Assembly: GCA_947502145.1 (NCBI GenBank)
Contig: CANMYO010000003.1
Span: forward strand, 124,001-188,000
Reading direction: 5' to 3'
Source of the DNA: an uncultured Paracoccaceae bacterium
Lineage (GTDB): Bacteria; Pseudomonadota; Alphaproteobacteria; Rhodobacterales; Rhodobacteraceae
Length of the DNA stretch: 64,000 nt
Position 1 is the stretch's first letter. Every line of letters begins with the position of its first letter. The position numbers were made by a program, and so were the translations under genes. This document shows positions 46,344 through 52,837 of the stretch, piece by piece. A model generated the notes under the pieces. That model saw only the letters and a list, made by a program, of their open reading frames with translations. It ran no database searches and was not told the DNA's origin.

Positions 46344-48419
46344 TCAGGCCTTGATCAGCCCCATGCTTTCCAGTTTCAGGATCACCTGATGGGCGCAATT
46401 GTCGACCTCGACACTTTCTGTTTCAAGCGAGAGTTCGGGATTTTCGGGCACGTCATAGGGATCGGAAATCCCGGTGAACTCTTTAATCTTGCCTTCGCGG
46501 GCAAGCTTGTAGAGCCCCTTGCGGTCGCGGCGTTCACATTCTTCGATGCTGGTGGCGACGTGCACTTCGATAAAGGCCCCGAATTGTTCGACGTCTTCAC
46601 GCACCGCGCGGCGTGTCGTGGCATATGGCGCAATTGGCGCACAGATCGCGATGCCGCCATTCTTGGTGATCTCAGAGGCGACATAGCCGATGCGGCGAAT
46701 GTTGAGGTCGCGGTGTTCCTTTGAGAACCCAAGCTCTGACGACAGGTTTTTGCGCACGATATCACCGTCCAGCAATGTCACCGGACGGCCGCCCATTTCC
46801 ATCAGCTTGACCATCAGCGCATTGGCGACGGTGGATTTACCGGACCCCGAAAAGCCGGTGAAGAACACGGTAAAGCCCTGCTTGGCGCGGGGGGGACGTG
46901 TCTTGCGCAGTTCTTCGACAACCGTGGGAAAGCTGAACCATTCCGGAATTTCCAGCCCTTCGGACAGGCGGCGGCGCAATTCGGTGCCCGAGATGTTGAG
47001 GATCGTCACGTCATCCTTGTCGGTGATCTCGTCCGCCGGTTCGTATTGGGCGCGGTCCTGCACATAGACCATGTGCTTAAAGTCGACCATTTCGATGCCC
47101 ATTTCTTCCTGATGTTCGCGGAACAGCTCCTGCGCATCATAGGGGCCATAAAAGTCTTCACCGGCAGAATTCTTGCCGGGGCCCGCGTGATCGCGGCCAA
47201 CGATGAAATGCGAACAGCCGTGGTTCTTGCGGATCAGCCCGTGCCAGACCGCTTCGCGCGGGCCGGCCATGCGCATCGCAAGGTTCAGCAAGGACATGGT
47301 TGTTGTCGAAGATGGATACTGGTCCAGCACCGCCTCGTAACAGCGCACGCGGGTAAAGTGGTCGATGTCACCCGGTTTGGTCAGGCCGACAACGGGGTGG
47401 ATCAGCAGGTTGGCCTGCGCTTCCTTCGCGGCGCGGAAGGTCAGTTCCTGATGCGCGCGGTGCAGCGGGTTGCGGGTCTGGAAGGCCACAACGCGGCGCC
47501 AGCCCAGCTTGCGGAAATAGGCGCGCAATTCGTTCGGCGTGTCCCGACGCCCCCGGAAATCATAGTGCACGGGCTGCTGGATGCCGGTGACCGGACCGCC
47601 CAGATAGACACTGCCCGCCTGATTGTGCAGGTAGTTGACCGCGGGGTGGGCGCTGTCATCAGCGCCAAAGACCATTTCCGCCTCGCGCGGCTTGTTGGGC
47701 TTGTATTTGTCGGTCACGGTCATCGTCGCCAGGATCACACCTTCCTGATCGCGCAGGGCGATGTCCTGACCGGGTTCGACCGTATCGGCAAAGGCTTCGG
47801 ACACATCGAGGGTGATCGGCATCGGCCAAAGACTGCCGTCCGCAAGGCGCATGTTTTCAACGACGCTTGTGTAGTCTTCTTCGCCAAGGAACCCCTTGAG
47901 CGGATTGAAACCCCCATTCATCAGCAGTTCCAGATCGCAGATTTGGCGCGGGCTAAGGTCGTGGCTGGTCAGGTCAGCGGCGTCCGACTTCATCTTCTGC
48001 GCACTCTCGAATGAGACGTAAAGCTCGGGGATGGGAGCGAGGTTGTATTCCATGACTTGGGTCCTGTGGTTGGGAGGGGGGTGACTGCTGGCAGAGCCGG
48101 TCAGCTCTGCGTGCAGCGCGTCGTATTCTGCAAACTTGCGGGCCAGAAACTGATCTGTCAGCCGGGCCTTTTCTGCTGCCCCGCGCGGGGTCAGCCCATA
48201 GGCAAATCGCTGACGTTTGTCGCTGCTGTCGCGCGCGCCGATCTTGATGAACCCTGCGGCCACCGCTGATTTCAGCTGTGCATTCAGCCGCCCCAGTGAC
48301 ACGCCCAGAACAGAGGCTGTGTGCCGTTGCGATGCATCTGGCGCATGGTCCAGCTGGCGCAACAGGCGAAACAGGGCTTCTTGTTCGTCCGTCATGGGAG
48401 GAGACTTTGTGGTGTTCAC
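46344..48419 (-). CDS. MarR-type EPS regulator fused to ATP sulfurylase / APS kinase
   Basis: One open frame of 691 codons. Residues 9-110 are a winged-helix regulator of the MarR EPS-associated type (SQRHTASVLGVSLGRLNAQL, YGLTPRGAAEKARLTDQFLA, KFAEYDALHAEL). From Met123 (48053) follows a complete bifunctional enzyme that turns sulfate into APS and then PAPS. ATP sulfurylase has TRNPLHRAH (315-323) and GRDHAGPG; APS kinase has the P-loop GFSGSGKST (522-530) and LDGDIVRKNL. These parts are normally separate genes; here no stop lies between them. AGGAC sits 9 bases before ATG 48053, so a separate enzyme may also be made. The regulator start (GTG 48419 or ATG 48395) lacks a clear ribosome-binding site. 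Confidence 0.85.
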   Translation of the reverse strand: MNTTKSPPMTDEQEALFRLLRQLDHAPDASQRHTASVLGVSLGRLNAQLKSAVAAGFIKIGARDSSDKRQRFAYGLTPRGAAEKARLTDQFLARKFAEYDALHAELTGSASSHPPPNHRTQVMEYNLAPIPELYVSFESAQKMKSDAADLTSHDLSPRQICDLELLMNGGFNPLKGFLGEEDYTSVVENMRLADGSLWPMPITLDVSEAFADTVEPGQDIALRDQEGVILATMTVTDKYKPNKPREAEMVFGADDSAHPAVNYLHNQAGSVYLGGPVTGIQQPVHYDFRGRRDTPNELRAYFRKLGWRRVVAFQTRNPLHRAHQELTFRAAKEAQANLLIHPVVGLTKPGDIDHFTRVRCYEAVLDQYPSSTTTMSLLNLAMRMAGPREAVWHGLIRKNHGCSHFIVGRDHAGPGKNSAGEDFYGPYDAQELFREHQEEMGIEMVDFKHMVYVQDRAQYEPADEITDKDDVTILNISGTELRRRLSEGLEIPEWFSFPTVVEELRKTRPPRAKQGFTVFFTGFSGSGKSTVANALMVKLMEMGGRPVTLLDGDIVRKNLSSELGFSKEHRDLNIRRIGYVASEITKNGGIAICAPIAPYATTRRAVREDVEQFGAFIEVHVATSIEECERRDRKGLYKLAREGKIKEFTGISDPYDVPENPELSLETESVEVDNCAHQVILKLESMGLIKA

Positions 48420-48437
48420 GCGATCGACTCAGGGTTT

Positions 48438-48483
48438 GTTCATCGCTGAACGTATTGCACGCGAAGTGTGTTCAAAAAAGAAC
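48438..48483. promoter_or_regulatory. two GTTC-N6-GAAC palindromes, candidate MarR operator
   Basis: GTTCATCGCTGAAC (48438-48451) and GTTCAAAAAAGAAC (48470-48483) share the same arms and spacing, and their centres are 32 bp apart, about three helical turns. They lie 19-64 bp upstream of the fusion gene, and a possible -35 (TTGAAC, minus strand) overlaps the distal one. They differ from the alphaproteobacterial LexA box, which is a direct GTTC repeat. Binding by the fused MarR domain is inference. Confidence 0.45.
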
Positions 48484-48598: not shown

Positions 48599-49576
48599 TC
48601 ATTCTGCGGCGCTGATGGTTTCGCGAACTTCTTCGTCTTCCTGTTCGGCGAGGAACTTTTCGGCATCAAGTGCCGCCATGCAGCCCATGCCCGCGCTGGT
48701 CACGGCCTGGCGGTAGATGTGGTCGGTCAGATCGCCCGCGGCAAAGACGCCGGGGATGGCGGTGCGGGTGCTGCCGGGGTCGACCACGACATAGCCGCCG
48801 GAATGGGTTTCCAACTGGTCCTTGACCAGTTCGCTGGCGGGCGCGTGACCGATGGCCACAAAGACGCCTTTGCAGGGGATATCCGTGATCTCGCCCGTTT
48901 TGGTGTGCTTGACCTTGATGCCTTCGACGCCCTTGGGGTTATCCTCGCCATAGACTTCGACCAGTTCATGAAACCACAGGGGTTCAATCTTGGGGTTCTT
49001 CATCAGGCGGTTCTCAAGGATCTTTTCTGACCGCAACTCGTCCCGGCGATGCACCAATGTCACCTTGCTGGCAAAATTGGTGAGGAACAGCGCCTCTTCC
49101 ACGGCGGTGTTGCCGCCGCCGATCACCACGATTTCCTGCCCGCGATAGAAAAACCCGTCACAGGTGGCGCAGGCAGAGACGCCAAAGCCCTTGAACGCCT
49201 CTTCCGAGGGCAGGCCCAGCCATTTCGCCCGCGCGCCAGTGGCCAGAATGACCGCATCCGCGGTGACAATCGCGCCGCTGTCGCAGGTTGCGGTAAAGGG
49301 GCGTTTTTGCAGGTCGAGCGAGGTCACGATGTCATGCACGATATTGCAGCCCATGGCGCGGGCGTGGGCCTCCATCCGGACCATGAGGTCGGGGCCCTGA
49401 ACCTCGGTATCGCCGGGCCAGTTTTCAACCTCGGTGGTGGTGGTCAGCTGCCCGCCCGGTTCGATACCCTGGATCAGCATCGGTTCCAGCATGGCGCGGC
49501 TGGCATAGACGCCGGCGGTGTATCCGGCAGGGCCAGAGCCAACAATAAGAACTTTGGTGTGTTGTTGCTTGCTCAT
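48599..49576 (-). CDS. trxB: thioredoxin-disulfide reductase
   Basis: A 325-residue FAD/NADPH enzyme that keeps thioredoxin reduced. The FAD motif is VLIVGSGPAGYTAGVYASRA, the redox centre CATC lies in SACATCDGFFYRGQ, NADPH binding is VIGGGNTAVEEALFL and the C-terminal motif is GVFAAGDLTDHIYRQAVTSA. Length is normal. It is divergent from a small exported protein. The 179 bp to the fusion gene hold a potential hairpin (48543-48590, GGGCGGTC/GACCGCCC arms) without a T run. Confidence 0.98.
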   Translation of the reverse strand: MSKQQHTKVLIVGSGPAGYTAGVYASRAMLEPMLIQGIEPGGQLTTTTEVENWPGDTEVQGPDLMVRMEAHARAMGCNIVHDIVTSLDLQKRPFTATCDSGAIVTADAVILATGARAKWLGLPSEEAFKGFGVSACATCDGFFYRGQEIVVIGGGNTAVEEALFLTNFASKVTLVHRRDELRSEKILENRLMKNPKIEPLWFHELVEVYGEDNPKGVEGIKVKHTKTGEITDIPCKGVFVAIGHAPASELVKDQLETHSGGYVVVDPGSTRTAIPGVFAAGDLTDHIYRQAVTSAGMGCMAALDAEKFLAEQEDEEVRETISAAE

Positions 49577-50130: not shown

Positions 50131-50928
50131 TCAGGCGGCTGCCTTGCGGCGAACCAGACCAAACGCGCCGATGCCGACAAGCAGCAGTGGCAGGCCAGCG
50201 GGCAGCGGAACAGGCGCAGTGATAACTTTCTGCAGTTTCGCGGCGATTGCGGCCTCATAGTCAGCAAAGTCGTCAACCTTGATCACAAAGCCGGTTGTGA
50301 GCGGGTTCGGGATGCTGTTCACGTCAACAACCATACCATTGGCTGCGTTCCCTGCGGTGCCCAGACCAGCAAGCTTGGCCATATTGGCCAGGTCGGTTGC
50401 AGTCAGACCGCTGCCGACACCTTCGAAGCTGATGCCGTCAACGCCGTTGTTGTGCGCGGCAAGTGCAGCTGCTTCGGCAAGGGCCTGTGCATTGCTCTGG
50501 CAGCAGGGCCGTCCGTCTGTTGTGATGTTGAACATCGTCAGGTCGGACAGGCCGCCGGCGTTGTTGAACAGGTTGTAAAGGTAGTTGATCGCAGAGGCTG
50601 TCTGCGTGCTGGAACCATTCTGGTAAGTCGCCGTGCTCACGGCGGTCTGTAGCGCGCCAATGTTACCAGCTGTCACCACCATTGGACCCCAGATCGTTGA
50701 ATTGCTGGACCCGAACTGAGTCACGGCAACACGGTACTGGTTGCCAGCAGGATCTGTGGGGATCGAACCAAGCGCTGTCGAAAGGGCAGTCTTGACGGTG
50801 TTGAAGTTGCTGGAACCAACACTCCCTGACCCATCGAGCGAGAAGCCCAGGTCAATCACGGCTGCGAAGGAGGCTGTGGCGCTCATCACGGCAATACCTG
50901 CCGCTGCCACGAGATTTCTAAATTTCAT
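50131..50928 (-). CDS. VPLPA-CTERM surface protein with von Willebrand A-like (DUF1194) domain
   Basis: 265 residues. A signal peptide (MKFRNLVAAAGIAVMSATAS) is followed by a vWA fold with the metal-site motif DGSGSVG (D-x-S-x-S) and ITTDGRPC. The C-terminus is a VPLPA-CTERM sorting signal: VPLPAGLPLLLVGIGAFGLV, then RRKAAA. Such tails are known to be processed by exosortase-type enzymes, often in species making exopolysaccharide. The protein is probably displayed or released at the surface and may bind a ligand through a metal. No exosortase gene is in the window. Symmetric motifs lie in the 293 bp upstream. Confidence 0.88.
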   Translation of the reverse strand: MKFRNLVAAAGIAVMSATASFAAVIDLGFSLDGSGSVGSSNFNTVKTALSTALGSIPTDPAGNQYRVAVTQFGSSNSTIWGPMVVTAGNIGALQTAVSTATYQNGSSTQTASAINYLYNLFNNAGGLSDLTMFNITTDGRPCCQSNAQALAEAAALAAHNNGVDGISFEGVGSGLTATDLANMAKLAGLGTAGNAANGMVVDVNSIPNPLTTGFVIKVDDFADYEAAIAAKLQKVITAPVPLPAGLPLLLVGIGAFGLVRRKAAA

Positions 50929-51221: not shown

Positions 51222-51722
51222 ATGCCCGGAACCAAGCTTGACGAGATCGATCGCACGATTCTCGCGGAATTACAGGCTGATGGGCGCATGACAAACGTGG
51301 AATTGGCCAAGCGGGTCGGCATTTCCGCACCGCCCTGCCTGCGTCGTGTCCGGACCCTTGAAGAGCAGGGATTCATACGCGGATATCACGCTGATGTGGA
51401 CGCCCGCGAACTGGGATTCGAAGTGCAGGTATTTGCCATGGTCGGGCTGGTCAGTCAGGCCGAAGCGGACCTGACCATGTTCGAGGAACGGTGCCAGAAA
51501 TGGCCGCTGGTCCGCGAATGCCACATGCTGAACGGCGAGGTGGATTTCATTCTGAAATGCGTTGCGCCGGATTTGCTGTCATTCCAACGGTTCCTGACCG
51601 GGCAACTGACCTCGGCCCCGAATGTGGCCAGCGTCAAGACCTCTTTGGTCATCCGGGGCGCAAAGGATGAACCGGGCGTCCCGTTTGACGTGCTGGAAGA
51701 ACGGCTTGCGCGGGACGCTTAG
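51222..51722 (+). CDS. Lrp/AsnC family transcriptional regulator
   Basis: 166 residues. The N-terminal helix-turn-helix is LDEIDRTILAELQADGRMTN plus VELAKRVGISAPPCLRRVRT. The C-terminal RAM effector domain follows (MVGLVSQAEADLTMFEERC, ECHMLNGEVDFILKCVAPDL). It probably senses an amino acid and acts as a dimer or octamer. It may control itself (half-sites at 51114-51168) and perhaps neighbours. The stop overlaps the Hint gene tail-to-tail (TTAG). Confidence 0.95.
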   Translation: MPGTKLDEIDRTILAELQADGRMTNVELAKRVGISAPPCLRRVRTLEEQGFIRGYHADVDARELGFEVQVFAMVGLVSQAEADLTMFEERCQKWPLVRECHMLNGEVDFILKCVAPDLLSFQRFLTGQLTSAPNVASVKTSLVIRGAKDEPGVPFDVLEERLARDA

Positions 51723-52519
51723 GCGACTTCGAAAAGATCAAGATCACGCAGCTGAATCCGCGGATGCAGCATGCTGCCAAAGTCCTGCAACGTGTCCTTG
51801 TGCGGGAAAAGCGACATCAACAGCGACAGCATATCGCTACGCAGGCCAAGCGTATGGGCCGCGCCGGGGTGCAGGGTTTCAATCCCGATCCCGTTGACAT
51901 TGATCAGGCAGTGATCATCAAACCCCAGCTGGTAGCAATGCACCGGCGCAATGGGTTTCAGTTCAATAATCTGGCTTTGGTCGATGAAATCACGCACCGG
52001 AATGAACGCGGCGTCCGACCCGGTCAGCGTGCGGACACCGGGGGCGTGGTGAATCACGCGGGCACCGGGGCCAAGAACCACGTCAGGTGAGGGGCGCCCC
52101 AGGCCAAGCGCATCCGCGGTGACGCGGGTCATGCTGCCCATTTCGGGCCGCGCATTCTGGGCACCGGGCACGATTGTCATGGTGCCATGCCATTTCAGCG
52201 TTTGCAGCCCGTGACTTGCGGTCATGACCTGATCGCCGGGCAACAGATCTTCGACCGCGCGGGGACCCGCATCGGTCTGGACGATTGCACCCCGCCCGAT
52301 GGCGGCAAAGGAGTCTTCGAATGCGGGCAGCGCCGGGGCAAGCCGGGTGGATTCGATGATTTCAGATTCGGGGGTCAGATGGGCGATCTCATATTTGCGC
52401 ATTAGAGGCTTTGCGCGCTGAGATCGCCCGTCTTGAGGAGCGATACGGCCAGACAGGCCAACCGACTTACTATTACTACGCACCGCGAGGCCGGCGGCGC
52501 TTGATGGGGTCGTCTTCAT
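51719..52519 (-). CDS. Hint-domain (hedgehog/intein-type) protein
   Basis: 266 residues from the ATG at 52519, which has AAGGTGAG upstream. The Hint core begins GAIVQTDAGPRAVEDLLPGD and QVMTASHGLQTLKWHG. Later blocks are HAPGVRTL, FIPVRDFID and HCLINVNGIGIETLHPGAAH. This bacterial Hint type is common in Rhodobacteraceae, often at the end of large secreted proteins; here it is nearly stand-alone with about 60 extra N-terminal residues. The usual Hint first residue is Cys or Ser; here the position seems to be Ala or Ile, so self-splicing is doubtful. Function unknown. Confidence 0.8.
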   Translation of the reverse strand: MKTTPSSAAGLAVRSNSKSVGLSGRIAPQDGRSQRAKPLMRKYEIAHLTPESEIIESTRLAPALPAFEDSFAAIGRGAIVQTDAGPRAVEDLLPGDQVMTASHGLQTLKWHGTMTIVPGAQNARPEMGSMTRVTADALGLGRPSPDVVLGPGARVIHHAPGVRTLTGSDAAFIPVRDFIDQSQIIELKPIAPVHCYQLGFDDHCLINVNGIGIETLHPGAAHTLGLRSDMLSLLMSLFPHKDTLQDFGSMLHPRIQLRDLDLFEVA

Positions 52520-52837
52520 GTGTCTCACCTTCCGGTTCGTCACAAATGTCGGCCCCCACCGACAACATCTGAGGAGCGTTGCTGTTAACCTGAATGTGGC
52601 GAATGGGGTCGCATTCTGTCAAAATGTTTCGCAGAATGGCGCAACGGGTTGATCAATCATGGCCCGAAACGGTGGATTGTTCACGCAGCGTGGCTGAACC
52701 TGCCACATTTGTCGGGGCTGGCCGGCAATCAAGGCCACGAATCGCGTCCGGATTCTTGCAGAACAAAGAAAGGGCCGCGCAACCAGTCGGTTACGCAGCC
52801 CCTTTGCCCTGGGAAGGCTATTGGTTGAGGAGGGACG
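52520..52837. other. 318-bp region between the Hint gene and a small-protein gene
   Basis: It contains the Hint ribosome-binding site and presumed promoter at one end and the small-protein terminator (52769-52805) at the other. Open frames across it are Arg/Ser-rich with no ribosome-binding site and look non-coding. Nothing else could be supported. Confidence 0.6.
52769..52805 (-). terminator. terminator of the 63-residue protein gene
   Basis: On the minus strand AAAGGG pairs with CCCTTT at the base, and an inner stem of about 10 bp with two wobbles closes on a 4-base loop. The run TTTCTTTG follows. It lies 33 bp past the stop of the small protein. Confidence 0.75.

Follow-up and report, generated by a model that had tools for sequence, protein, structure and literature searches.

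One reading frame in the window, the whole stretch of 64,000 nucleotides analysed here, is predicted to yield two proteins, of which the longer would control the gene that encodes both. The long form joins a MarR-type winged helix to a complete ATP sulfurylase/APS kinase (Sat-CysC), and we put at about 0.7 the probability that it represses its own promoter while a short form, consisting of the enzyme, is made from the same frame.

The frame runs uninterrupted for 691 codons on the minus strand (46344..48419), from a GTG start at 48419 to the stop at 46344, and all features of the gene given below lie on that strand. An earlier note on this DNA had described an in-frame fusion of a MarR-type regulator to Sat-CysC, and this is confirmed by the single frame and by profile matches above cut-off for both parts. 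The winged helix (residues 12-106, 48102..48386) matches TIGR04176.1, MarR_EPS, with 94.0 bits against a curated cut-off of 88, and residues 120-690 match the Sat-CysC family NF004040 with 1041.6 bits against a cut-off of 669. A linker lies at about residues 107-122 (48054..48101), and in a full-length AF2 model, which is poor in parts (mean pLDDT 68.2), residues 113-137 fall below a pLDDT of 50. The PUA_2 domain (47577..48029), the ATP sulfurylase catalytic domain (46902..47546) and the APS kinase domain (46425..46880) all exceed their Pfam cut-offs; both enzyme domains are complete, and the kinase carries the P-loop GFSGSGKST. The predicted short form, a 569-residue Sat-CysC (46344..48053), starts where the unfused sat genes of the family start. 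A further in-frame ATG lies downstream of the GTG, at 48395, and we favour the GTG as the start of the 691-residue long form on account of a conserved GAG and the usual distance between operator and start.

Our comparisons draw on 95 fused loci from 94 genomes (L005 and L038 come from the same genome) and on 40 unfused loci, which with few exceptions are the best-scoring unfused rows and not a random sample; the fused loci are related by descent, so that their counts are not independent. The fusion is present in all six genomes of the host genus, and in at least 90 of the 329 genomes with a Sat-CysC match among 394 of the host family, Rhodobacteraceae. A sequencing error or chance run-on of the frame was also considered and is ruled out, the same in-frame fusion recurring throughout the genus (6 of 6 genomes) and in at least 90 of the 394 genomes of the family, and the winged helix having a median dN/dS of 0.137 (37 closest pairs), which shows it to be under purifying selection. 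The two enzyme parts gave medians of 0.078 and 0.052 (39 pairs), all pairs being drawn from 87 of the 95 fused loci. In a survey of 385 genomes of the class, 41 had a Sat match, five of them from the host family and two of these fused; none of the 36 genomes of other families with a Sat match carried the fusion. A scan of named genomes returned 324 related stretches, the best 80 of which include Leisingera, Phaeobacter italicus, Shimia, Roseovarius, Salipiger and Loktanella. By title, 78 of these 80 belong to Rhodobacteraceae, Rhodobacterales or what we take to be their member genera, and the remaining two are an 'Alphaproteobacteria bacterium' and Maritalea mobilis (Devosiaceae by taxonomy, as named). 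Seventy-nine of the 80 were usable (L202, cut short, was left out), and since this set overlaps the first fused set (at least at L182 and L183) its counts serve as a check and not as an independent sample.

An AF2 model covering residues 1-112 (mean pLDDT 88.7) predicts a winged helix followed by a long C-terminal helix, with helices at residues 11-25, 31-38, 42-54 and 78-107 and strands at 58-62 and 72-76. A search of PDB structures with this model gave a best E-value of 2e-5 at modest TM-scores of 0.50-0.63, and the 50 matches shown carry MarR-type titles or, failing an informative title, are taken by us to be of that type; phmmer found no match for the winged helix among PDB sequences at E 0.1. 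Of 90 listed fused-type domains, 35 pass the TIGR04176 cut-off of 88 and 55 score below it (72-88 bits). In a tree built from 35 of 93 fused and 28 of 30 standalone sequences, the fused winged helices form a clade apart from standalone MarR_EPS proteins with support of 100/100, which falls to 54/82 once the diverged L126 is included. The fused gene of that locus (G301 C156) encodes a very diverged winged helix with a shorter wing, yet the locus retains a pair of exact palindromes, 25 bp apart, along with a start codon at the internal position. The label MarR_EPS, as we understand it, denotes regulators encoded with exopolysaccharide genes, a meaning that lies outside the score. That gene context was not found at the fused sat locus; the neighbours conserved there are trxB, an Lrp-type regulator and purE/purK (the names are our own assignments), and we therefore place the fused domain in the MarR_EPS domain family as a diverged member, without regarding it as an EPS regulator. 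When the domain was used on its own as query, 89 of the 90 listed fused-type domains (72-100 bits, the list ending at 72.6) lay in open frames of at least 601 codons, so that coupling to the enzyme seems to matter; the frame of the 90th, in G037, has 267 codons and is close to the end of a contig.

Upstream of the long form stands a predicted operator, O1 (GTTCAGCGATGAAC, 48438..48451), an exact GTTCAN4TGAAC, and 32 bp upstream of it an operator-like copy with one mismatch, O2 (GTTCTTTTTTGAAC, 48470..48483). The exact palindrome precedes the start in 93 of the 95 fused loci, and was found at none of the 40 loci of the family where sat is unfused, nor in any of 1900 shuffles; a relaxed palindrome lies upstream of 3 of the 40. 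One of the two exceptions (L039) has a single mismatch, and in the other (L058) a contig end cuts the locus; a second contig of the latter genome has trxB- and Lrp-like neighbours and a promoter-operator unit at its end, and we take it to be the missing piece. Among the named-genome loci, 78 of 79 have the exact operator and the 79th has one mismatch. The 93 operator-aligned loci share CTTT about 28 bp upstream (T in 92% at -28 and 89% at -27) and TGnnAT directly before the palindrome (T 80% at -8, G 84% at -7, A 90% at -4 and T 91% at -3), with TTTGAGTC after it, and we read these elements as -35, extended -10 and ribosome site. In the window, this column conservation puts the predicted -35 region (48475..48480) inside O2 and the predicted extended -10 (48453..48459) directly beside O1, and the candidate ribosome site of the long form, in keeping with the conserved sequence after the operator, is a GAG (48428..48430) 8 nt before the GTG. 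In 65 of 92 loci the distance between the operator centre and the first in-frame ATG or GTG is 23-27 nt. A second palindrome copy with at most one mismatch is found nearby in 24 of the 93 aligned loci, and in 13 of these, the window included, it lies at exactly 32 bp, or about three helical turns. Placed over the -10/start region, the operator would therefore occupy a repressing position, and the suggestion that the protein controls its own gene is probably correct, given a conserved palindrome at that gene's promoter which goes with the domain.

It is with the domain that the operator goes, and not with the locus, since fused and unfused genes share the locus. The conserved upstream neighbour in the window (48599..49576, minus strand), which we take to be trxB, thioredoxin reductase, has its counterpart upstream of sat in 55 of the 60 fused loci and in 36 of the 40 unfused ones, and a presumed Lrp-type gene is near sat in 52 of 60 and 30 of 40, respectively. 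The operator as a general feature of the sat locus was considered as well and is ruled out, none of the 40 unfused genes carrying an exact copy at the same place. Two other minus-strand genes of the window may be mentioned here. The protein encoded at 50131-50928 has a signal-like start and a VPLPAG...RRK end, presumably resembling a VPLPA-CTERM sorted protein, and no relative of it turned up around sat in any of the 60 fused and 40 unfused loci; relatives of the one encoded at 51719-52543, presumably a Hint-type protein, occur close to sat in 25 of the 60 fused loci and in 21 of the 40 unfused ones.

Within the frame, an ATG at residue 123 (48051..48053) stands at the enzyme's own start, 8 nt downstream of an internal Shine-Dalgarno sequence, AGGA (48062..48065), that begins with the AGG codon of Arg119. 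Such internal starts were searched for as an ATG 6-10 codons before a PELYVS-like motif, or else as the codon 8 before it, in 94 of the 95 fused loci (L005 was left out). All 94 genes have a start codon at this place (ATG in 89, GTG in 4 and TTG in 1), 92 of them 8 codons before the motif, and the spacing from AGGA to the start is 8 nt in 90. The arginine before the start is encoded by AGG in 91 of 92 genes, against 44 of 5032 other Arg codons of the same genes (0.9%); counted by alignment, this column is 98.8% AGG, and the next best of 46 conserved Arg columns reaches 5.1%. All five genes without ATG at the internal start have GTG or TTG there, codons that make up 4 of 62 non-Met codons in other Met-majority columns. 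A count by alignment column gives 85 start codons in 87 genes, the other two being one-residue shifts with an ATG beside the column, and start codon, AGG and 8-nt spacing are all present in 79 of 79 named-genome loci. Selection acts on this internal start. Its ribosome site is not simply a leader shared by sat genes either, because in a Shine-Dalgarno test 76 of 80 internal starts with Met in fused genes scored, against 1 of 30 starts of unfused genes (10 of the 40 unfused loci were left out of the scoring). Median anti-Shine-Dalgarno energies were -4.0 at the internal start, -2.2 at the first start and -1.7 in random coding stretches. The earlier note was right about an internal Met with its own ribosome site; it called that site weak, whereas the median duplex energy over the fused loci is stronger there than at the first start, so that the short form is probably the more abundant. 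It should also be a complete enzyme, since in 40 of 40 unfused ORFs a Met stands at about the same residue, 7-10 before the PELYVS motif (8 in the fused window protein). That two products arise from one frame, which had been offered as an alternative to self-control, is probable in view of this conserved start, and the evidence favours both together.

The main target predicted for the fused regulator is its own promoter. The window genome contains seven exact GTTCAN4TGAAC sites, of which four lie inside ORFs, two between ORFs, and one, the only site with the conserved promoter unit, before the fused gene. The inter-ORF palindromes (C5:92697, L171, and C16:5321, L173, in G000) are possible further targets; one of them is followed, after about 26 bases, by an ORF for a possible P-loop kinase. 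Searched for with a pattern so strict that some of the fused genes escape it, the promoter-plus-operator unit occurs at 31 places in 198 family genomes, and the reversed pattern at none. Twenty-six of these places are at a fused gene, 25 by coordinates and one through the contig argument made above for the L058 genome, and five are elsewhere. One of the five, in G136, precedes a standalone MarR_EPS gene whose neighbours look polysaccharide-related to us; the other units away from sat are at G097 C4:48503, G034 C120:20044, and G171 C361:61 and C504:8489. No operator was found before the genome's own cysH operon, presumably cysG-cysI-cysH; of two single-mismatch sites in its vicinity, one is within the cysI-like ORF and the other about 2.2 kb upstream. 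Nor is there an operator in front of or near the single Sulfotransfer_3 gene of the window genome, the one match to the sole sulfotransferase family searched, and the proposal that sulfated exopolysaccharide is the outlet of the pathway finds no evidence here.

Parallels to this arrangement exist in other pathways. According to the excerpted text of PMC12421817, NadR of Enterobacterales carries, like the fused Sat-CysC, an N-terminal HTH repressor followed by an adenylyltransferase and then a kinase in one chain, and its DNA binding is tuned by NAD and ATP. It differs in belonging to the NAD pathway and in repressing several NAD genes, whereas the fused Sat-CysC has one promoter unit, its own; an internal start, predicted for the latter, goes unmentioned for NadR in that excerpt (PMC12421817). 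BirA likewise has an N-terminal HTH on an adenylate-making enzyme, accumulation of the adenylate drives its dimerisation and repression, and the contrast between its groups I and II resembles that between unfused and fused sat, as far as the excerpt of PMC4016012 describes them. BirA differs in controlling the biotin genes, whereas a second, domain-free product is predicted from the frame of fused sat. The fused protein has, as these proteins do, a DNA-binding domain on a metabolic enzyme, and a conserved palindrome, to which it is predicted to bind, stands at its own promoter and hence at a gene of its own pathway; as in cases of internal initiation, its frame contains a conserved ribosome site and start codon. 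By analogy, the fused gene may work like NadR or BirA, for sulfate activation. Among its own relatives, standalone MarR_EPS proteins share the domain family by TIGR04176 score and the type of operator, and differ in being encoded by a separate gene, in forming a separate clade and in being enzyme-free, while bifunctional Sat-CysC proteins (NF004040) share the same complete enzyme module. The solved relatives 1i2d, 1m8p, 2gks and 3cr8 match over stretches of the enzyme only, and the closest of them by sequence, 1i2d, is presumably the ATP sulfurylase of P. chrysogenum. PAPS regulates the P. chrysogenum ATP sulfurylase allosterically through an inactive APS-kinase-like domain, as reported in the excerpt of PMC3734648, whereas the APS kinase of the fused protein retains its P-loop.

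A mechanism along the following lines would probably account for these features. The long form, with its winged helix, ATP sulfurylase and APS kinase, would bind GTTCAN4TGAAC over its own -10/start region and repress transcription, and the internal AGGA-N8-ATG would start the short form, the plain Sat-CysC enzyme, which would supply most of the enzyme. Long and short forms may mix in one oligomer, and we would guess that the state of the enzyme, most likely with APS or PAPS bound, sets the grip of the tethered winged helices on the operator; the choice of APS or PAPS as the signal is conjecture guided by BirA and NadR. That the long form sits in oligomers of the short form, reads their APS or PAPS state and represses its own promoter is a tentative proposal, to which we give somewhat less than an even chance. 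If true, one frame would encode enzyme, sensor and repressor, and its two ribosome sites would set the fraction of sensor.

Other proteins or other genes might be involved instead. A different regulator could bind the operator, the fused winged helix having ceased to bind DNA, and this we consider very improbable: the exact operator occurs with the domain and at none of the 40 unfused loci, and the winged helix has been held under purifying selection. Standalone MarR_EPS genes, moreover, have the same type of operator, with the exact palindrome upstream of 13 of 28 and the relaxed one upstream of 26 of 28, compared with 0.04% and 1.2% of their shuffled upstreams, which suggests that this operator type belongs to the MarR_EPS protein family. 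Nor does the genus have a MarR_EPS paralog that could use the operator, since each of its six genomes has a single TIGR04176 match (E 0.001), the fused one. The idea that exopolysaccharide genes are under the control of the domain, which would link sulfate activation to EPS, draws on the EPS association of its closest named family, on the G136 unit before a standalone MarR_EPS gene with what we take to be polysaccharide-like neighbours, and on the two inter-ORF sites of the window genome. The G136 site, however, belongs to the standalone regulator, the promoter unit occurs once in the window genome, at the fused gene, and at the fused gene in 26 of 31 places across the 198 genomes, and the fused domain forms a separate clade, so that we give this idea, put forward in the earlier note, scarcely any credence. 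As an aside, TGCGGYAGC occurs within 300 bases upstream of 26 of the 28 usable standalone MarR_EPS genes (L007-L036, 28 of 30 usable), and presumably resembles the ops element of RfaH-type antiterminators.

Autoregulation might also operate in a simpler form. The long form could be the single product, the internal AGGA-ATG being a relic of the former enzyme start or some other nucleic-acid signal, and the alignment of the internal start with the start of unfused enzymes would fit such an origin. A relic would not, however, be expected to keep AGG in 91 of 92 genes, where 0.9% of other Arg codons are AGG, together with only ATG, GTG or TTG, nor does it sit well with a Shine-Dalgarno test that separates fused from unfused starts, and we regard a single product as unlikely. 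It is possible, if rather doubtful, that the winged helix serves to adjust the quantity of enzyme through plain autorepression and that the long form senses no ligand. One target promoter unit in the window genome is consistent with this, as is the low-confidence and presumably flexible linker of the model, which would let the domain act alone. Under plain autorepression, however, the fusion would be needless, yet 89 of the 90 fused-type domains listed continue into a long frame, and BirA and NadR, built to the same plan, answer to ligands of their own pathways in the excerpts of PMC4016012 and PMC12421817.

The winged-helix domain is evidently dispensable, since many relatives lack it. The Sat protein tree is weakly resolved, with 27 changes between fused and unfused states of which starred branches force only 2. 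DNA trees, drawn with one genome per genus, contain supported clades that mix the two states. The sat tree requires 29 state changes, within the shuffled range (mean 34.0, lowest 27), the trxB tree 25 (shuffles: mean 28.4, lowest 23), and the joined sat and trxB tree 27 (shuffles: mean 34.2, lowest 29). Over these trees the states appear scattered almost as if at random, and domain and operator therefore seem to come or go together repeatedly, in a pattern that gain, loss, transfer or tree error may equally explain.

No description of a MarR_EPS-Sat-CysC fusion or of its regulation was found in the openly licensed papers searched, one of which, in its excerpt, merely names a MarR family EPS-associated regulator (PMC10599003), and searches on internal starts and on enzyme-repressors returned nothing on fused sat among the matches listed. 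The control of sulfate activation in roseobacters and their relatives appears to be undescribed in the papers searched, and a conserved enzyme-repressor with its operator, in genera that include Leisingera, Phaeobacter, Shimia, Roseovarius and Salipiger, offers a testable answer to how it is achieved. The internal start is a clear example of two proteins being maintained in one frame by selection. If the proposed reading is true, sulfate activation would join the pathways that are run by an enzyme acting as its own repressor.
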